NCBI GenBank assembly: GCA_902806565.1
Contig: CADCXA010000056.1
Span: forward strand, 682,001-746,000
Direction of reading: 5' to 3'
Origin: Hypoxylon rubiginosum
Lineage: Eukaryota > Ascomycota > Sordariomycetes > Xylariales > Hypoxylaceae
Length of the DNA: 64,000 bases
Every line of letters starts with the position of its first letter. The first letter of the stretch is position 1. The notes under the pieces are model-generated. The model did not search any database, had not been told where the DNA came from, and saw only the letters and a program-made list of their open reading frames with translations. The position numbers and the translations under genes are program-made. Shown one piece after another: positions 10,782-17,783 of this stretch.

Positions 10782-10790
10782 ACACATACG
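10782..10790. repeat. Target-site duplication, left copy (ACACATACG)
   Basis: Nine bases directly outside the left inverted repeat are repeated exactly at 17,784-17,792 outside the right one. A 9-bp duplication is characteristic of Mutator-like elements, and the perfect match indicates a fairly recent insertion. Confidence 0.92.
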
Positions 10791-11003
10791 GGGGATACAG
10801 CTCAGCCGACCATTGACCCGCTTTGGACCTGACCATTGACCCGCTTATTTGTATGTGGCGGGGTGCCGACCACTGACCATTGGGATCTGACCTGACCATG
10901 GCCCCATGGTCAGTCTTGGCATTTATTAATAGAGTACTCAATAACCCCTCCATATCCTATTAACCACTTTCACTCTAGTGGCTCCATTTATATAAGCCAA
11001 TTA
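10791..11003 (+). repeat. MULE left terminal inverted repeat
   Basis: It matches the reverse complement of 17,571-17,783 with only scattered differences, concentrated near 10,845, where the left copy repeats GACCATTGACCCGC and the right copy reads differently. It contains several GACCATTG/TGGTCA motifs as internal subrepeats and one TGAGTACTC-type site at 10,932. The ORF at 10,693-10,953 is encoded by this repeat and is not a gene. Confidence 0.92.
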
Positions 11004-11194
11004 TACACAAGAAAAGCATAGACCAATAGTCAATAAAAGTAATTGCTATGCCCAAATTAAAATGATACCAAACTTTCCTTTACACATACTTTTACCATAA
11101 TTTGACTAACTACTCAATAAGTACTCATTGAGCATTTAATATAAAATTTATTCTATTGGGTAATTACTAAAGTTACACAGCCCTATTCACTAAT

Positions 11195-13254
11195 ATGGCA
11201 CCATTACCTTCTACATCCTACAAACACAAATCTGTAAGTTTTTATTCATTTCATAAGTACTATATGAGTACTCATTATGTTTTATAGGAAGGATACAAGT
11301 GGTATCAGGCTCACGAAACACGACCAGATAATGTATCGCCATTCGATATGATCGTAAGTTCTATATTTCTTTTTGATAACTCGATGAGTACTCATTATAT
11401 ATCAGGGTGCGGATCAAGTCGTTATTCCTAATGGTGAATGCTTCTGTCGATTCAACATGAATCACAACACCGACGCTGATATTCAGTTATGCTATCGCAC
11501 GGTGAGTCATATATGAACACTTATGGGGTACTCAATAAGTGCTCATTAACTTTGAACAGGACAAGATATTACATTGGAGTAACCTTAAGCGCCATGTTGA
11601 GTCACATCGTGTCATCGTCGACGGGAATGATGTGGAGATTCGACTGGCGAAGAATCGCAATGGCGGATTGACACTGCATGATCATGCTGTATTAATTAGT
11701 AAGTACTCATCGAGCAGTATAGAACTCGTATCAGCTAATGAACCAATATAGCATACTGGGACTCGGTGAAGAAGGACATCGACGAGTTCAACCCGAACAC
11801 CGCGGCTAGTTCGGTGGGAAAGACACCATTCCGGCCTGATACGCGGCCTCTCCAAGCCCCAAAGCAGAAGGATCTCAAGTCAGTTCCTTTCACGAAGGCT
11901 CGCAAAAACTGCGCAGCTCATGTAAGATATATCAAGGACTTTTCGAGTACAAATTGAGCTAATCTATTATAGCCTAACCTGAAATCTATGAAGCTTCTGG
12001 CGGGACAAAAGAAAAAGGCCTGCGAGGGCTGTATCGAGGCCGGAAGGAGTTGTAAGTGATCACTCGATAAGTACTCAATGAATAACTAACTGGTGTTTAG
12101 CTTGTCCAGAGGTACGCAAACCGGACTGCCATCTTTGGATGCAGTTCTTAGAGACGAGGCGAGAGAGACGTGCCCGCCCCGATGAAACCGACGTAAGCGA
12201 CGACGATTCAAATCATGCCCATACCATCGATAGCAAGGATGCGGAGAGTAAATCTATACCCGAGCACCAGCCAACTCTTCCAAGAGAGCCCTCAATGAGT
12301 GTCTCAATGAGTACTCAACAGGGTCACCAACGGGCTGGCAGCAAGACTGTCCTGCTGTCTGATGGTTCTGCCCGGATTTTTGACTCTATTGCGGATATCG
12401 AGGCCGCGGAACGTCAGCAAGCTACGGAAGCAGAGACTGAACGTCATGGAATGATGCAGCTGCAATCCTTCCAAGAGATGATATCCCATCCTGAGCTTCA
12501 AGATGAGGTAAATCAAGAGTTCCTATTTGAGGATGATCCCCTGCTGCAGCAGGAACGAGAGTTCCAGCAGCAGGAACAAGAGCGCCTGCAGCAGCAGCAG
12601 GAGCAGGAACGCCTGCTGCAGCAAGAACGAGAGTATCTGCTGCAGCAGGAGCAGCAGGAACAAGAGCGCCTGCAGCAGCAGCAGCAAGAGCAGGAACGCC
12701 TGCAGCGAGAGGAACAAACTCGCCTGCAACAAGAAGATCAAGAACGTCTGCAGCGAGAAGAGCACGAACGCCTGCAACGAGAAGAGAACGAACGCCTGCA
12801 ACGAGAAGAGAACGAACGCCTGCAACGAGAAGAGCAGGAGCGCTTACAACAAGAAGAGCAGGAGCGCTTACAACAAGAAGAGCAGGAGCGCCTGCGGCAA
12901 CAGCAAGAACAAGAGCGCTTACAACAAGAGCAGGAGCGCCTGCGGCAACAGCAAGAACAAGAGCGCTTACAACAAGAGCAGGAGCGCCTAAACGAGCAGG
13001 AGAATCGCGAGACTCACGAGAATAACGAGTTAAATGGAGAAAAACAACAGGAGCCCGATACGCGCCCAATGAAAATAAGACGTGTAGAGAAAAAAACGTT
13101 GTCCACTGAGCCGAGGAAAACTCGTTCTGCTACTAAGAGAGAACTTGAAGAGTCCTTATCAAATGCTTCACGGGAAACCACCGAGTGTTTCACGACGCCG
13201 GAGGGAGCTAACGATGACGATGCAGCCGCGCGACAGCTTCAGGATAACGTATAA
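11195..13254 (+). CDS. MULE companion protein, Cys/His-rich N-terminus plus Gln/Glu coiled coil, 580 aa
   Basis: Exons 11195-11233, 11288-11353, 11406-11501, 11560-11698, 11752-11921, 11973-12051 and 12101-13254 join into 1,743 nt with no stop. The start is the Met of MAPLPSTSYKHKS, directly before the first intron. Residues about 45-85 hold CFC and a later Cys followed by HWSNLKRHVESH, a possible zinc-finger DNA-binding unit. A second cluster (KKACEGC, then two more Cys, ending CHLW) lies near residues 185-205. Residues about 325-490 are a highly repetitive EQERLQQ-type segment with strong coiled-coil character and CAG-rich DNA. A basic tail with KIRRVEKK follows, resembling a nuclear signal. 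Being inside the element, it may bind element DNA or assist transposition; that is inference, and I do not recognise the family. Confidence 0.8.
12527..13000 (+). repeat. CAG-rich coding repeat (EQERLQQ units)
   Basis: In-frame degenerate repeats coding mainly for Glu, Gln, Arg and Leu with period about 7-12 residues, such as GAAGAGAACGAACGCCTG-type units near 12,780-12,840 and CAGGAGCGCC units near 12,870-12,990. The repeats lie inside the companion gene and also create long open frames on the other strand, which are artefacts. The heptad-like spacing of Leu fits a long coiled coil. Confidence 0.85.
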
Positions 13255-13738
13255 GTGGCTAGAATAGGGAGAGTGGGTTTTGAGTGCTCCATGTGCTAAT
13301 CATGGAGTATTCAATAAGTACTTAAAAGTGTTTATGTGGCGTTCTTTTCATTACGAGTAAACGGACGATATCCAGGTAGTAGGGCAGTTTTAACGCGTTC
13401 AACGATACCCATTGCTATGATAGTCTAATTTGACCAATACCTTTCGAGTACTTGATGAGTACTTGATGAGTACTCATGGAATATAAAACCAGTTTCCATA
13501 TGAAGCACTCTCATTTATCTTTGCTGACGCATTTACAATTGAATTACCATAATAATTAAGCAATAAAAGGGATTGCAATAAAATTCCAAATTCAACATAT
13601 ATAGTTAATTACTTCTATGCCTATTTGCAAAATGGAAGTTCACGGAATAAAGCATCCAATACATTATAACTAAATACTCGTTAAGTACTCATAGAGTACT
13701 CTATGAGTAGTTAATGAGTATTCTATAACAAAAAATAG

Positions 13739-16700
13739 TCAAATACCCTCCGCCCTCCGTCTCTGTTCAAGATCATACCTAGCCTGATCCAGCCGCAGTC
13801 TCCTCTCCTCAAGCTCAAGCTCCCGCTCTTGACGAGCAAGGACTTCATCATAGGCATTGCTTGTCGCGTCTCTTGCCATGGAACTGAGAGGTATCAGTAA
13901 GTGCTCGATATATACTCTTCGAGTACTCATTAAGTACTCATAATAACTTACCTGCGACTTCGACCTCCTCTACGCCCGGACCCAGGCGTGCTATGGACAG
14001 GACTCAATGTTCGACGTGGAGTGGGCGTCCTCGGGACACTAAGGGATCGTTGAGTACTCCCAGAGGCATCGGAAAGCGGCGAGGATCTAATTATTTGCTT
14101 CCTGGCTTTTCGTTCGTCACTTGATTGTCGCTGACGGGTAGTTCTTTTCACTGTACTGCAAATTAGTACTCTGCAAGTACTTATTCAATACTTATGGAGT
14201 ATTCCATCAAAATTAGGGGCACTTACTTTGCGCTTTAATGGCATTGCTCCATCGTGTATCCAATGAATGATTCCTTTGACCGTACCGAATGCCGTACCGC
14301 TGATATATATCGGCTTGTTGGATACGACGAGCATCATATTCGGCGTTAACCTGAACAACTACAAATACCGGCTTATACCTGCCACTAGCATGATAACTAG
14401 CATGATGGAGCGATTCTACCGCGTTCGTACTTCTAGACATCGCATGCCAGTCGGCTTCGTCGATATCGGAACAACACCTCGCGAGCCCTGATGCGATTTC
14501 AGGAATTCTCTTATGTTTAACCCAGGGGATTATCCCAGGGTAGTTACTGGTTAATGTGTCCTCAGCTGAAGTAGTATTAGTGTATGCTTAGTACTTATTA
14601 AGAACTCTATGAGTACTCACAAATTATCTTTTCGCAAGTACCGTGATAATCAGACTCCGTCTTGGCTTCAGGTAAGTGGATGAGGATATCGTATATGGAA
14701 TTCTGGAATCTCGGCGTATACTCCCCTAGCAGCTTTCTCACATTTCTCTCGTAATGAACTCTGCAGAAACGAACGGAGCGTTTGTGATGATAGAGCCATC
14801 CACGGCGTTCTGGGTCCAGATGCTGCGATACGAAGTGTCCCCATGCTATATACAATTAGTACTTATTAAGTACTCAATGAGTACTTATAGAGTAGCTAGT
14901 CGCAACTGACCTTGAAAAATGCCCCATTCCATATCGAACGTAAACCCGAGAATACCAGTTCCGTGGAGATGCTTTAATTGAATCTCTCTACCAGTGGCAG
15001 AGTGAACAGTTGAAAAGACATTCTGAAACATGAAGAAGTACATATCAGGGCTCTGCGAGTTTGTGATTACTCGGAGTGTTACCTCGGCTATAGAACGGTT
15101 AATCTTTGATAAGTACTCATTGAGTACTCAGAGACTACTCGTGGAGGGGCAAATGGGGAACTCACATCTTCGCGATACTTCATCGTAAAAAGCCCAAATT
15201 ATCTCGAACTGGCCACCTATGAGGTGCTTGAAATTCATATCTACTTGGAGTGAGATATCTGGAGTCTGAAACAAGAGTAAAAGTTGCTCGACATAGAACA
15301 AAATAACCATGAAATTCGTGTTATCATCGTGGAAGAATTGAATATACTGCGGAGCAAATAATCAACTTAGCAATAGAGTACTAACCGAGAGTTCATCGAG
15401 TACTTACCTTGTTTTCGCTGTCCTTGTGATTCAATTCCCATTCATACCGCAAGGCGAGGCGCGAAGAACCTAGAGGATAATGTATAGCCCGTTCCTGGCG
15501 AATGATACGACGTAAGGCATCATCGTTAGTAAAATAGGGGTGAATCTCGGCGAACGTTTGACTATTAAACTCTCTCAGGAACTCCTGACACGCCTCGCTC
15601 CTGAGAAAAGTCCCTAATACAATTAATATGTACTCAAAAAGTAGTTGTTTAGAGCTTCGTGACCTACCGAGGGATCCATCACGATCGCCCGACTTGCGAA
15701 TATACTGAATAAACCGCCGTACCAAGCTCTTAGGTTCACGATTTGGAGTGGGCGGGGGGTGTTTATGCTCACCATGGATCGAAAGAAAAAACCATGGGTA
15801 TTTCTTGCGGTCGCATGGGATATGCCATTTGAATATCACATCACATTTGAGAGGTATTAGTTGCGGAGGAGTATCAACGGTGTGAAATGTGTCTGACGAG
15901 ATGTTAGTGAGTCCTTAAAGAGTACTCATGAAGTACTCCCTAAACTTACTGCACAGTTTACCCCTCCCAGACGTCCCAGCAATTGTCCCACAATACTCAC
16001 CCATATCCCGAGCAAACTCTCGAAGTTCGGGATTATCTTGGATGATATCCTCCCAGTCCCATTGCTCAACTATGCGCTTAATCACAGTCCAGTGTTCCAT
16101 TAAACGGGCAGGGACATGTCGAGAAAAGTGCGCATACTCTTCCATCCCATGATTCGCGCATTGCAAGAATTTCCTCGGCGATCCGTCAGGATACTAGTGA
16201 AGAGGTTAATAAGTACTCAATAGGTAGTTTGCGAGTACTTACATTGTCGCCCGCCATTTGCCCGTGACCCAACACACACTCGACATACCCTTGCATTGTC
16301 ATTTCATTCCACCTGTCACCAGGAAAGAATTCAGGCTTCAAGGTCCTGTGACATGGCTTAGGCACATCGAAAGCTTTGAGTGCTCCCCGTGCAAAGGCAA
16401 CTGCCTCGAACAAAGCCGAGTGCTTCTCGCGTGCTCGATTAATCCTCGCAGGCATACTCCAAAAGGAGTCATCTTCGGGGATACGTGTGTGATGGAGATC
16501 GCGAATGTTTGGGTGTAGATGTGGACAGATCTTAATACCACTACATTGACGTGTATAACGTATCACGGCGGCATCGTTTAATAGGTCGGTTGTCCCAGCC
16601 TTCGCTGGGTGTTTCTGGTATGTCGAATATTGCATCTAGAAGACGGAAATTAGCTGAGTACTCAATGAGTACTTCTTAACCACTATACAGGATCACTTAC

Positions 16701-17205
16701 GTCCTCCCAGGGCGCATTTTGAACGGCTTCATTGAGTACTCCAATAGGGCATATATAAAGCACTCCATCTGGGTCAGTCCTTGGATAGGCCGGAAGCGTT
16801 GAAACTGCATAAACGTGACGAACGTAGGTGGCAGTATTTTGATGCACCAATGTACCGTCAATTAATCGTCTACCACTTGACACTAATCGCGGAGTGCTTA
16901 AGGAGAGCTCGATGGAATCGGGGTGCCCTATCGGGTTGTTCATATCCTCACTATTCGTCGGCATTGCTTGATTCCGAATAGTTGTTGAGTTAGTCATCGA
17001 GTACTCACGCCGACCAATATCAGCCCGAGTCGTGAGATCGAGTAAGGCATCTGTCCATGGTTTTGGGAGAGCAGGTGCCTCAACTCGATAATCTATAAAC
17101 AATTAATGAGTATACCTCAACTCGTCGCCAGTATCTAAGTTGAAGCTTACCATCTGGTATGTCTTCAGCATAGTTAGGTCGAATAATCTGGTGGGGTTGA
17201 GCCAT
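13739..17205 (-). CDS. MULE transposase, 926 aa, 12 exons
   Basis: Exons from the 5' end: 17205-17151, 17092-16701, 16635-16243, 16193-15950, 15892-15668, 15613-15408, 15346-15166, 15087-14911, 14845-14621, 14565-14227, 14150-13952, 13883-13739. They sum to 2,781 nt with no stop. Near residues 375-410 a Cys-Cys-His-His pattern ending HGEHKHPPP resembles the WRKY/GCM1-type finger of MULE transposases. The catalytic domain follows: LQVDMNFK (Asp near 541), FKHLHG-like KHLHGTGILGFTFDMEWG (Asp near 617), RFCRVHYERNV with the C-x2-H of MULEs, and STNAVESLHHASYHASGR, where the likely catalytic Glu is near 750. The tail is Arg/Ser-rich and ends in a charged helix. It should cut and join the 213-bp ends. 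The start codon (MAQPHQ) is the best Met, but an extra 5' exon cannot be excluded. Confidence 0.87.
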
Positions 17206-17570
17206 TGTTAGATTCTCGTATTGATGAGCGCGATGTATAGGTAAATGTGAGGACTCACGCTGGTTTAATAATTGATTGCTTATTGAGTACTCATTAACTA
17301 TTCCATAGTAAACTCCTGCGCTTTGGCGGTCAAATCGGCGGTCAAGTCGGCGGTCAATCGTACCCATCACTACATCTTACTTGGTCCTGCCATCGGTGAA
17401 CTCACCGCAAAGCCTAATAAGTAGTCGATGAGTGCTCATCAAGCAGATCGATATAAGCAAAACGTTTTGTTAAGTAGGTAGGTAAAAGGAGGTAAATTTC
17501 GTGATATGTGGTGGTGGTATTCTAATAGATTTGTGGTGGTGATATTCTAATAAATGCTCACCTAGCTACG

Positions 17571-17783
17571 TAATTGGCTTATATAAATGGAGCCACTAGA
17601 GTGAAAGTGGTTAATTGGATATGGAGGGGTTATTGAGTACTCTATTAATAAATGCCAAGATTGACCATGGGGCCATGGTCAGGTCAGATCCCAATGGTCA
17701 GTGGTCGGCACCCCGCCACATACAAATAAATGGGGCTATGGTCAGGTCCAAAGCGGGTCAATGGTCGGCTGAGCTGTATCCCC
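17571..17783 (-). repeat. MULE right terminal inverted repeat
   Basis: Reverse complement of 10,791-11,003 over the full 213 bp, ending CTGTATCCCC next to the target duplication. The inner boundary is TAATTGGCTT, after which the two ends differ. It includes one TGAGTACTC-type site near 17,636. Confidence 0.92.

Follow-up and report, generated by a model that had tools for sequence, protein, structure and literature searches.

Tandem 11-bp palindrome arrays in a MULE-like transposon of Hypoxylon rubiginosum and their possible role as docking sites for an element-encoded protein

The window considered here, a 64,000-nucleotide stretch of the Hypoxylon rubiginosum genome (contig CADCXA010000056.1, positions 682,001 to 746,000), harbors a DNA transposon that spans exactly 10791-17783 and is bounded by terminal inverted repeats (TIRs) and a target-site duplication (TSD). 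Two genes converge within it, one for a transposase-like protein on the minus strand and one on the plus strand for a second protein, hereafter the companion (Table 1). Gene models were drawn from GT...AG borders and then corrected by alignment to database homologs. A 12th transposase intron of the first model (16967-17008) was dropped in this way, being coding when aligned to the homolog P0002, and the final models total 17 introns (6 companion and 11 transposase-like), the same number as an earlier, sequence-only reading of this DNA. The Pfam and protein database searches of the transposase used a previous 912-aa model.

Table 1. Coordinates of the transposon, its genes and its motif arrays within the window.
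Feature	Position	Strand	Remarks
Target-site duplication, left copy	10782-10790		ACACATACG, same 9 bp as right copy
Target-site duplication, right copy	17784-17792		Matches left copy ACACATACG
Left terminal inverted repeat	10791-11003	+	213 nt, 97% complementary to right; one core at 10933
Right terminal inverted repeat	17571-17783	-	213 nt; one core at 17636
Companion gene	11195-13254	+	7 exons, 6 introns, 580 aa; predicted model, homolog P0001 aligned across junctions
Six companion introns (predicted)	11234-11287, 11354-11405, 11502-11559, 11699-11751, 11922-11972, 12052-12100	+	Exact cores in 4/6
Tandem 24/48-bp repeat	12540-12989	+	Codes the companion's QEQERL-type peptide repeat; length differs among copies
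Motif arrays between convergent 3' ends	13281-13724		Cores 13317, 13447/13458/13469, 13684/13695, plus near matches
Transposase-like gene	13739-17205	-	12 exons, 11 introns, 926 aa; predicted model, homolog P0002 aligned across junctions
Transposase introns 1-6 by coordinate (predicted)	13884-13951, 14151-14226, 14566-14620, 14846-14910, 15088-15165, 15347-15407	-	
Transposase introns 7-11 by coordinate (predicted)	15614-15667, 15893-15949, 16194-16242, 16636-16700, 17093-17150	-	

The element is densely populated by the palindromic core AGTACT. The sequence-only reading had reported about 38 cores in 7 kb where a few would be expected by chance, about 24 of them in about 1 kb of intron and neighbors repeatedly 11 bp apart, and counting bears out all three points. 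The window holds 45 cores against 12.1 expected (100 shuffles, largest 20), and 38 of them lie inside the element. Compared with dinucleotide shuffles made separately for each sequence class (300 each), introns present 24 cores in 1,003 bp (shuffled mean 1.58, maximum 7), other non-coding element DNA 8 in 1,037 bp (mean 0.41, maximum 3), TIRs 2 in 426 bp (mean 0.03, maximum 1) and exons 4 in 4,527 bp (mean 0.59, maximum 3). Compared with the other non-coding DNA, introns are the denser class: half of the combined length holds 24 of the 32 cores (binomial p = 0.004). An exact core is found in 13 of the 17 introns and the full decamer with 2-3 mismatches in the remaining four, the same partition as read earlier; for the transposase gene alone, nine of the 11 introns carry exact cores, 2-3 apiece at 11 or 22 bp spacing. 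The further statement of that reading that exons are nearly free of the motif holds in that they are poor in it, but they are not depleted relative to shuffled sequence, and all four exonic cores fall within decamers of at most one mismatch (expected 0.13). Of the 14 pairs of neighboring cores no more than 40 bp apart, 11 are spaced by 11 bp and three by 22 bp, with no other spacing observed.

The motif is TGAGTACTCA, a perfect palindrome of 10 bp that recurs in units of 11 bp. Given that units were picked by their AGTACT core, the constancy of the core is by construction and the flanks are the independent evidence: they read TR...YA, and isolated cores mostly keep TG or TA before and CA or TA after. 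Where the flanks depart from TG...CA, the change is in most cases G>A or C>T, of the kind left by repeat-induced point mutation (RIP). Since the element as a whole lacks a RIP signature by the usual indices (TA/AT 0.89, (CA+TG)/(AC+GT) 1.12), we read these deviations as tolerated degeneracy. Sites with up to two mismatches recur along the entire body at start-to-start gaps of at most 392 bp, with the sole exception of a 973-bp gap, the stretch that holds the peptide-repeat exon. Four of the 17 introns (11699-11751, 14566-14620, 15347-15407 and 16194-16242) begin with GTRAGTACTC, so the motif can overlap the 5' splice site, and the palindrome may be partly tuned to serve also as a splice donor.

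All DNA comparisons were made within this one genome (48.3 Mb, 70 contigs). Here the decamer occurs 76 times against 9 for its reversed control; among the 50 of these 76 matches that were listed, 36 are in the transposon family (32 in four full copies and 4 in short relatives) and 14 are outside. Three more full copies at 8 decamers each would explain 24 of the other 26 places. The decamer is rare elsewhere in the genome. AGTACT-N5-AGTACT pairs occur 91 times against 2 for the reversed control. As 48 of the 50 listed among these 91 fall in full copies or short relatives and two (C32 and C34) fall outside, the paired motif, within the matches listed, belongs to the transposon family rather than to introns as such, the host genome at large or a single DNA stretch.

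In the 5,567 bp of sequence sampled per copy, the window copy and six others show no difference; these seven unmutated copies each sit between different 8-9 bp duplications (9 bp in five, 8 bp in two). The C3 copy, compared in full, presents no substitution and one 48-bp deletion. We regard the element as a MULE-like DNA transposon of an ascomycete that has moved recently. Two further full copies (C8:453310-460207 and C18:65648-72544, loci L035 and L036), whose TSDs match at 8 of 9 bp, were subject to extreme RIP, with GC falling from 45% to 5%. Relative to the window copy they carry 2,751 and 2,766 substitutions; C>T or G>A changes make up 2,738 and 2,755 of these, respectively. On the plus strand, C>T changes affect 96-98% of CA, 91-93% of CG, 87-88% of CT and 82-88% of CC sites. 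Both are RIP products of practically the same sequence as the window copy. Exact cores are reduced from 38 to 0 and 1, a loss that we attribute to RIP because the differences are almost only C>T or G>A. A RIP-tolerant scan still returns 20 and 22 pairs at 11 bp and 10 and 11 pairs at 22 bp, with no more than 4 at every other distance between 8 and 25 bp, so that homologous copies with the exact cores all but gone retain the 11/22-bp pattern and do not refute the earlier reading; they are too recent and too close in origin to inform on long-term conservation. Further RIP-mutated transposase fragments are found in C19, C25, C6 and C31.

Non-autonomous elements of about 1 kb share only their ends with the full element (116-123 bp, 97-99% identical). 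Three were examined, L039 (979 bp), L046 (979 bp, identical to L039) and L040 (1,017 bp), all three with a 9-bp TSD. With motifs masked, the L039 interior returned no BLASTN match to the autonomous element at E<=0.01. Even so, L039, L046 and L040 carry 5, 5 and 4 exact cores, respectively, arranged in two 11-bp arrays, against about 0.2 on average and 3 at most in shuffled interiors of L039 and L040 (500 shuffles). One array differs between L039 and L040 by exactly one 11-bp unit, in this single comparison. Nine more end-bearing loci (L041-L045, L047 and L049-L051; L048 was left out) were subjected to the RIP-tolerant scan and seven keep 5-6 pairs at 11 bp. Arrays within unrelated, gene-less interiors favor family-specific sites for protein binding, in line with one option of the sequence-only reading, in which a protein of the element binds sites kept where coding sequence imposes little constraint.

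The protein database search returned a single transposase homolog, P0002 of Hypoxylon sp. FL0890, 51% identical over 98% (51-53% across alignments). The catalytic signature of MULEs has a D...D...CxxH...E layout, and residues D541, D617, C652-x2-H655 and E750, picked by eye, stand in the same order in both known sequences. Together with duplications in the 8-11 bp range and long TIRs (213 nt, 97% complementary), this order makes MULE membership likely. For the label as originally given, TSD and TIRs fit and profile matches lend no support: the transposase-like protein has no Pfam match at E<=1, P0002 none at E<=10, and the catalytic part returned one unrelated sub-threshold name only. Against three PF10551 ORFs of the same genome, no alignment rose above shuffles (z<=1.9) and hhalign gave no support, with profiles 2-3 sequences deep; the structure model of the homolog (pLDDT 44) is too weak to confirm the fold. 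These three MULE ORFs (C60:138304, C10:218242 and C60:94012, loci L067-L069) are uninterrupted over 498-751 codons, contrasting with the 17-intron element, and the six PF10551 loci L067-L072 hold 5 AGTACT altogether in 19.5 kb.

The companion likewise has a single database homolog, P0001 of Rostrohypoxylon terebratum, 51% identical over 88% of the N-terminal 240 residues. This part includes a C2H2-like cluster (C, C, H-x3-H with NL-x-RH) whose Cys/Cys/His/His residues are invariant in all four aligned sequences, two of them divergent open frames from elsewhere in this genome, and a CxxC...C...C cluster is common to the Rostrohypoxylon homolog. The tail is a tandem 8-residue repeat, poorly alignable with P0001, whose coding sequence is shorter than in the window copy by 48 bp in C3 and by 96 bp in both C8 and C18, always in frame; in these three copies compared in full it holds the only length difference of more than one base. 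Searched against Pfam, P0001 returned only two unrelated sub-threshold names. Relatives of the companion N-terminus are also found outside visible transposons (L073:2391-2783 in C50 and L074:2997-3368 in C53), both adjoining ordinary-looking genes, as judged by eye, and the former an open frame of 130 codons. No long inverted repeats flank either frame in the 5.5-6 kb around each, and these are possibly domesticated or stranded copies. We considered whether they might be second families with a motif of their own and rejected it, as they present 0 and 3 scattered AGTACT cores and no arrays.

We propose that the TGAGTACTCA palindromes form tandem 11-bp-unit arrays that bind a protein encoded by the element, with sites spread through introns, the 3' intergenic stretch, the upstream stretches and the TIRs and recurring every few hundred bp. 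That the arrays are binding sites for such a protein is probable. The companion would be the likeliest binder because of its C2H2-like cluster and expandable peptide-repeat tail, and we favor this assignment with some reserve: with no family match and homolog structure models too weak to use, we infer DNA binding from the residues. In analogy with the VANC proteins described below, the companion might coat the copies of its own family and keep full and non-autonomous copies accessible or unsilenced. For sites that recur along the whole element, such body coating is a better fit than control of promoters or recognition of the ends by itself. That anti-silencing is the main role is a tentative suggestion, somewhat short of an even chance, while the overall picture of an independently evolved, VANC-like docking-site system seems to us about evenly balanced between right and wrong.

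The sequence-only reading knew of no described MULE with this layout; Arabidopsis VANDAL MULEs have it, according to PMC5735166, and by this comparison the layout is not unprecedented. VANDAL MULEs encode VANC proteins, whose variable regions contain tandem peptide motifs (PMC5735166, PMC10398659). Within its own family, VANC21 binds YAGTATTAY in introns and in intergenic and terminal non-coding DNA; other motifs are found in the target regions of VANC6, and these motifs are fast-changing tandem repeats. Under VANC the element loses DNA methylation, and silencing is removed (PMC5735166, PMC10398659). A 2025 meeting report refers to work, as yet unpublished, on the structure of VANC and on the co-evolution of its motifs (PMC12859917). 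Like VANDAL21 and VANDAL6, the fungal element is a DNA transposon with a transposase and a companion gene (PMC5735166, PMC10398659) and has a short family-specific motif in tandem arrays within introns, intergenic and terminal non-coding DNA (PMC5735166). Turnover of arrays, seen here as one 11-bp unit in one comparison (L039 with L040), is a further likeness, as is a companion that joins a conserved part (here N-terminal) to a variable tandem-peptide part. The differences are a fungal host, 213-bp TIRs, 17 introns and a 10-bp palindrome in an 11-bp unit, whereas VANDAL motifs are YAGTATTAY or AGTTGTCC/AGTTGTAC. Unlike VANC, the companion carries a C2H2-like cluster, lacks any Pfam match and is a putative binder and anti-silencing factor; Pfam returned no VANC homology (DUF1985/DUF287) for it (E<=1; N-terminal part E<=10), homology beyond the reach of profiles being possible. 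We therefore compare the element with VANDAL/VANC in its way of working, tentatively as regards the anti-silencing role, and do not place it in that family.

Other functions for the arrays have to be weighed. They might bind the transposase itself, or a transposase-companion complex, for end synapsis or cutting, which is what sub-terminal repeats serve in CACTA-type elements. It would suit this reading that non-autonomous elements retain arrays along with their ends, and that one L039 array ends about 45 bp inside the right-hand shared end. However, sites run through the whole body and not just near the ends, arrays of L039 and L040 are found only in the right-hand half, and the TIR core at 10933 lies beyond the shared ends of about 120 bp. 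We consider this reading unlikely. Less likely still is that the arrays are autoregulatory, with the companion acting on the element's own genes as a transcription factor: its C2H2-like cluster and the sites upstream of both genes (cores at 11120 and 17286, one-mismatch decamer at 17429) would agree, but the majority of cores lie not upstream but within introns or in the DNA separating the 3' ends, and arrays are present in non-autonomous elements that have neither gene.

Two readings dispense with a bound protein. Neutral 11-bp minisatellites that slippage and recombination had carried into unconstrained DNA would account for tandem units with array-specific linkers, locally duplicated in appearance, and for the one-unit length change in the short elements. 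Slippage explains the tandem form but not the same unit in unrelated interiors, whose paired sites are found almost nowhere else in 48 Mb among the matches listed. Moreover, isolated cores mostly keep their flanks, bases not used in selecting them, and the four exonic cores are near-complete decamers; we regard neutrality as improbable. The other reading, an introner-like origin of the introns or a splicing signal, draws on the introner-like (stw)introns with a 10-nt palindrome that multiply in Hypoxylaceae, probably the same fungal family, and on the introns here that open with the motif. Those stwintrons (PMC8469720, PMC12403724) carry another palindrome, in one or two copies per intron, and resemble each other, whereas introns here carry 11-bp arrays with no mutual resemblance. 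The shared origin suggested by the sequence-only reading was rejected, since all 17 introns, once the motif is masked, show no cross-match, and the stwintron palindrome WTTCTAGAAA, with up to one mismatch allowed, has a single site in the window (60440) and none within the element. Of the introns' content, the genome-wide search covered the paired-core pattern. Because gene-less relatives with unrelated interiors carry arrays, which are also found outside introns, both the intron-origin and the splicing-only readings are disfavored; a splicing signal could be at most part of the explanation. This last reading is largely refuted, and we give it very little credence.

Several points weigh against a protein-coated, shielded element. 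At least two full copies and several short ones have been lost to RIP, which means that any shield must be leaky or active outside the RIP stage; the unmutated identical copies could also just postdate the last round of RIP. The companion has no Pfam family at E<=1, nor its N-terminal part at E<=10, and modelling of its homolog gave a poor structure (pLDDT 50). The arrays could instead be bound by the transposase, and slippage also produces 11-bp arrays that have no function. Finally, two of the 11 short-element loci scanned lack an 11-bp peak, L047 with one such pair and L051 with none.

If a protein of the element does bind the arrays, fungal and plant transposons, whose companions share no detectable homology, would have arrived at the same unusual solution, namely many short non-coding sites, introns included, a fast-changing companion tail and family-specific recognition. 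Sequence-specific counter-defence by transposons would then be a general strategy, and the present family would provide a second system for protein-motif co-evolution, in a host whose defence (RIP) leaves a permanent mutational record. It also suggests that transposon introns are possibly kept as regulatory DNA. The most far-reaching version, in which fungi independently evolved a VANC-type system whose zinc-finger protein coats the arrays against heterochromatin or RIP and for which the 17 introns are kept as docking platforms distributed along the coding DNA, we deem doubtful, leaning to unlikely. Homology recognition in RIP reportedly has an 11-12 bp periodicity, and we can speculate that the arrays play an anti-RIP role through it.

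Among the literature matches listed (titles and abstract starts, subscription papers mostly uncovered), there was no fungal transposon with motif arrays. Mutyl of Yarrowia lipolytica is also an ascomycete MULE with a second ORF (MutB) described with a DNA-binding role and a 9-10 bp TSD; compared by description only, it differs by its 22-bp TIRs, and the available part of its description mentions no motif arrays (PMC6446971). Fungal TET/JBP dioxygenase transposons similarly encode a protein proposed to counter methylation-based silencing, although theirs is an enzyme and not a motif binder, and here neither protein matches Pfam (E<=1) (PMC12730594). Within the family itself, two element ends adjoin head to tail at L041:925-1149 (C66), which suggests a nested or tandem insertion of short elements.

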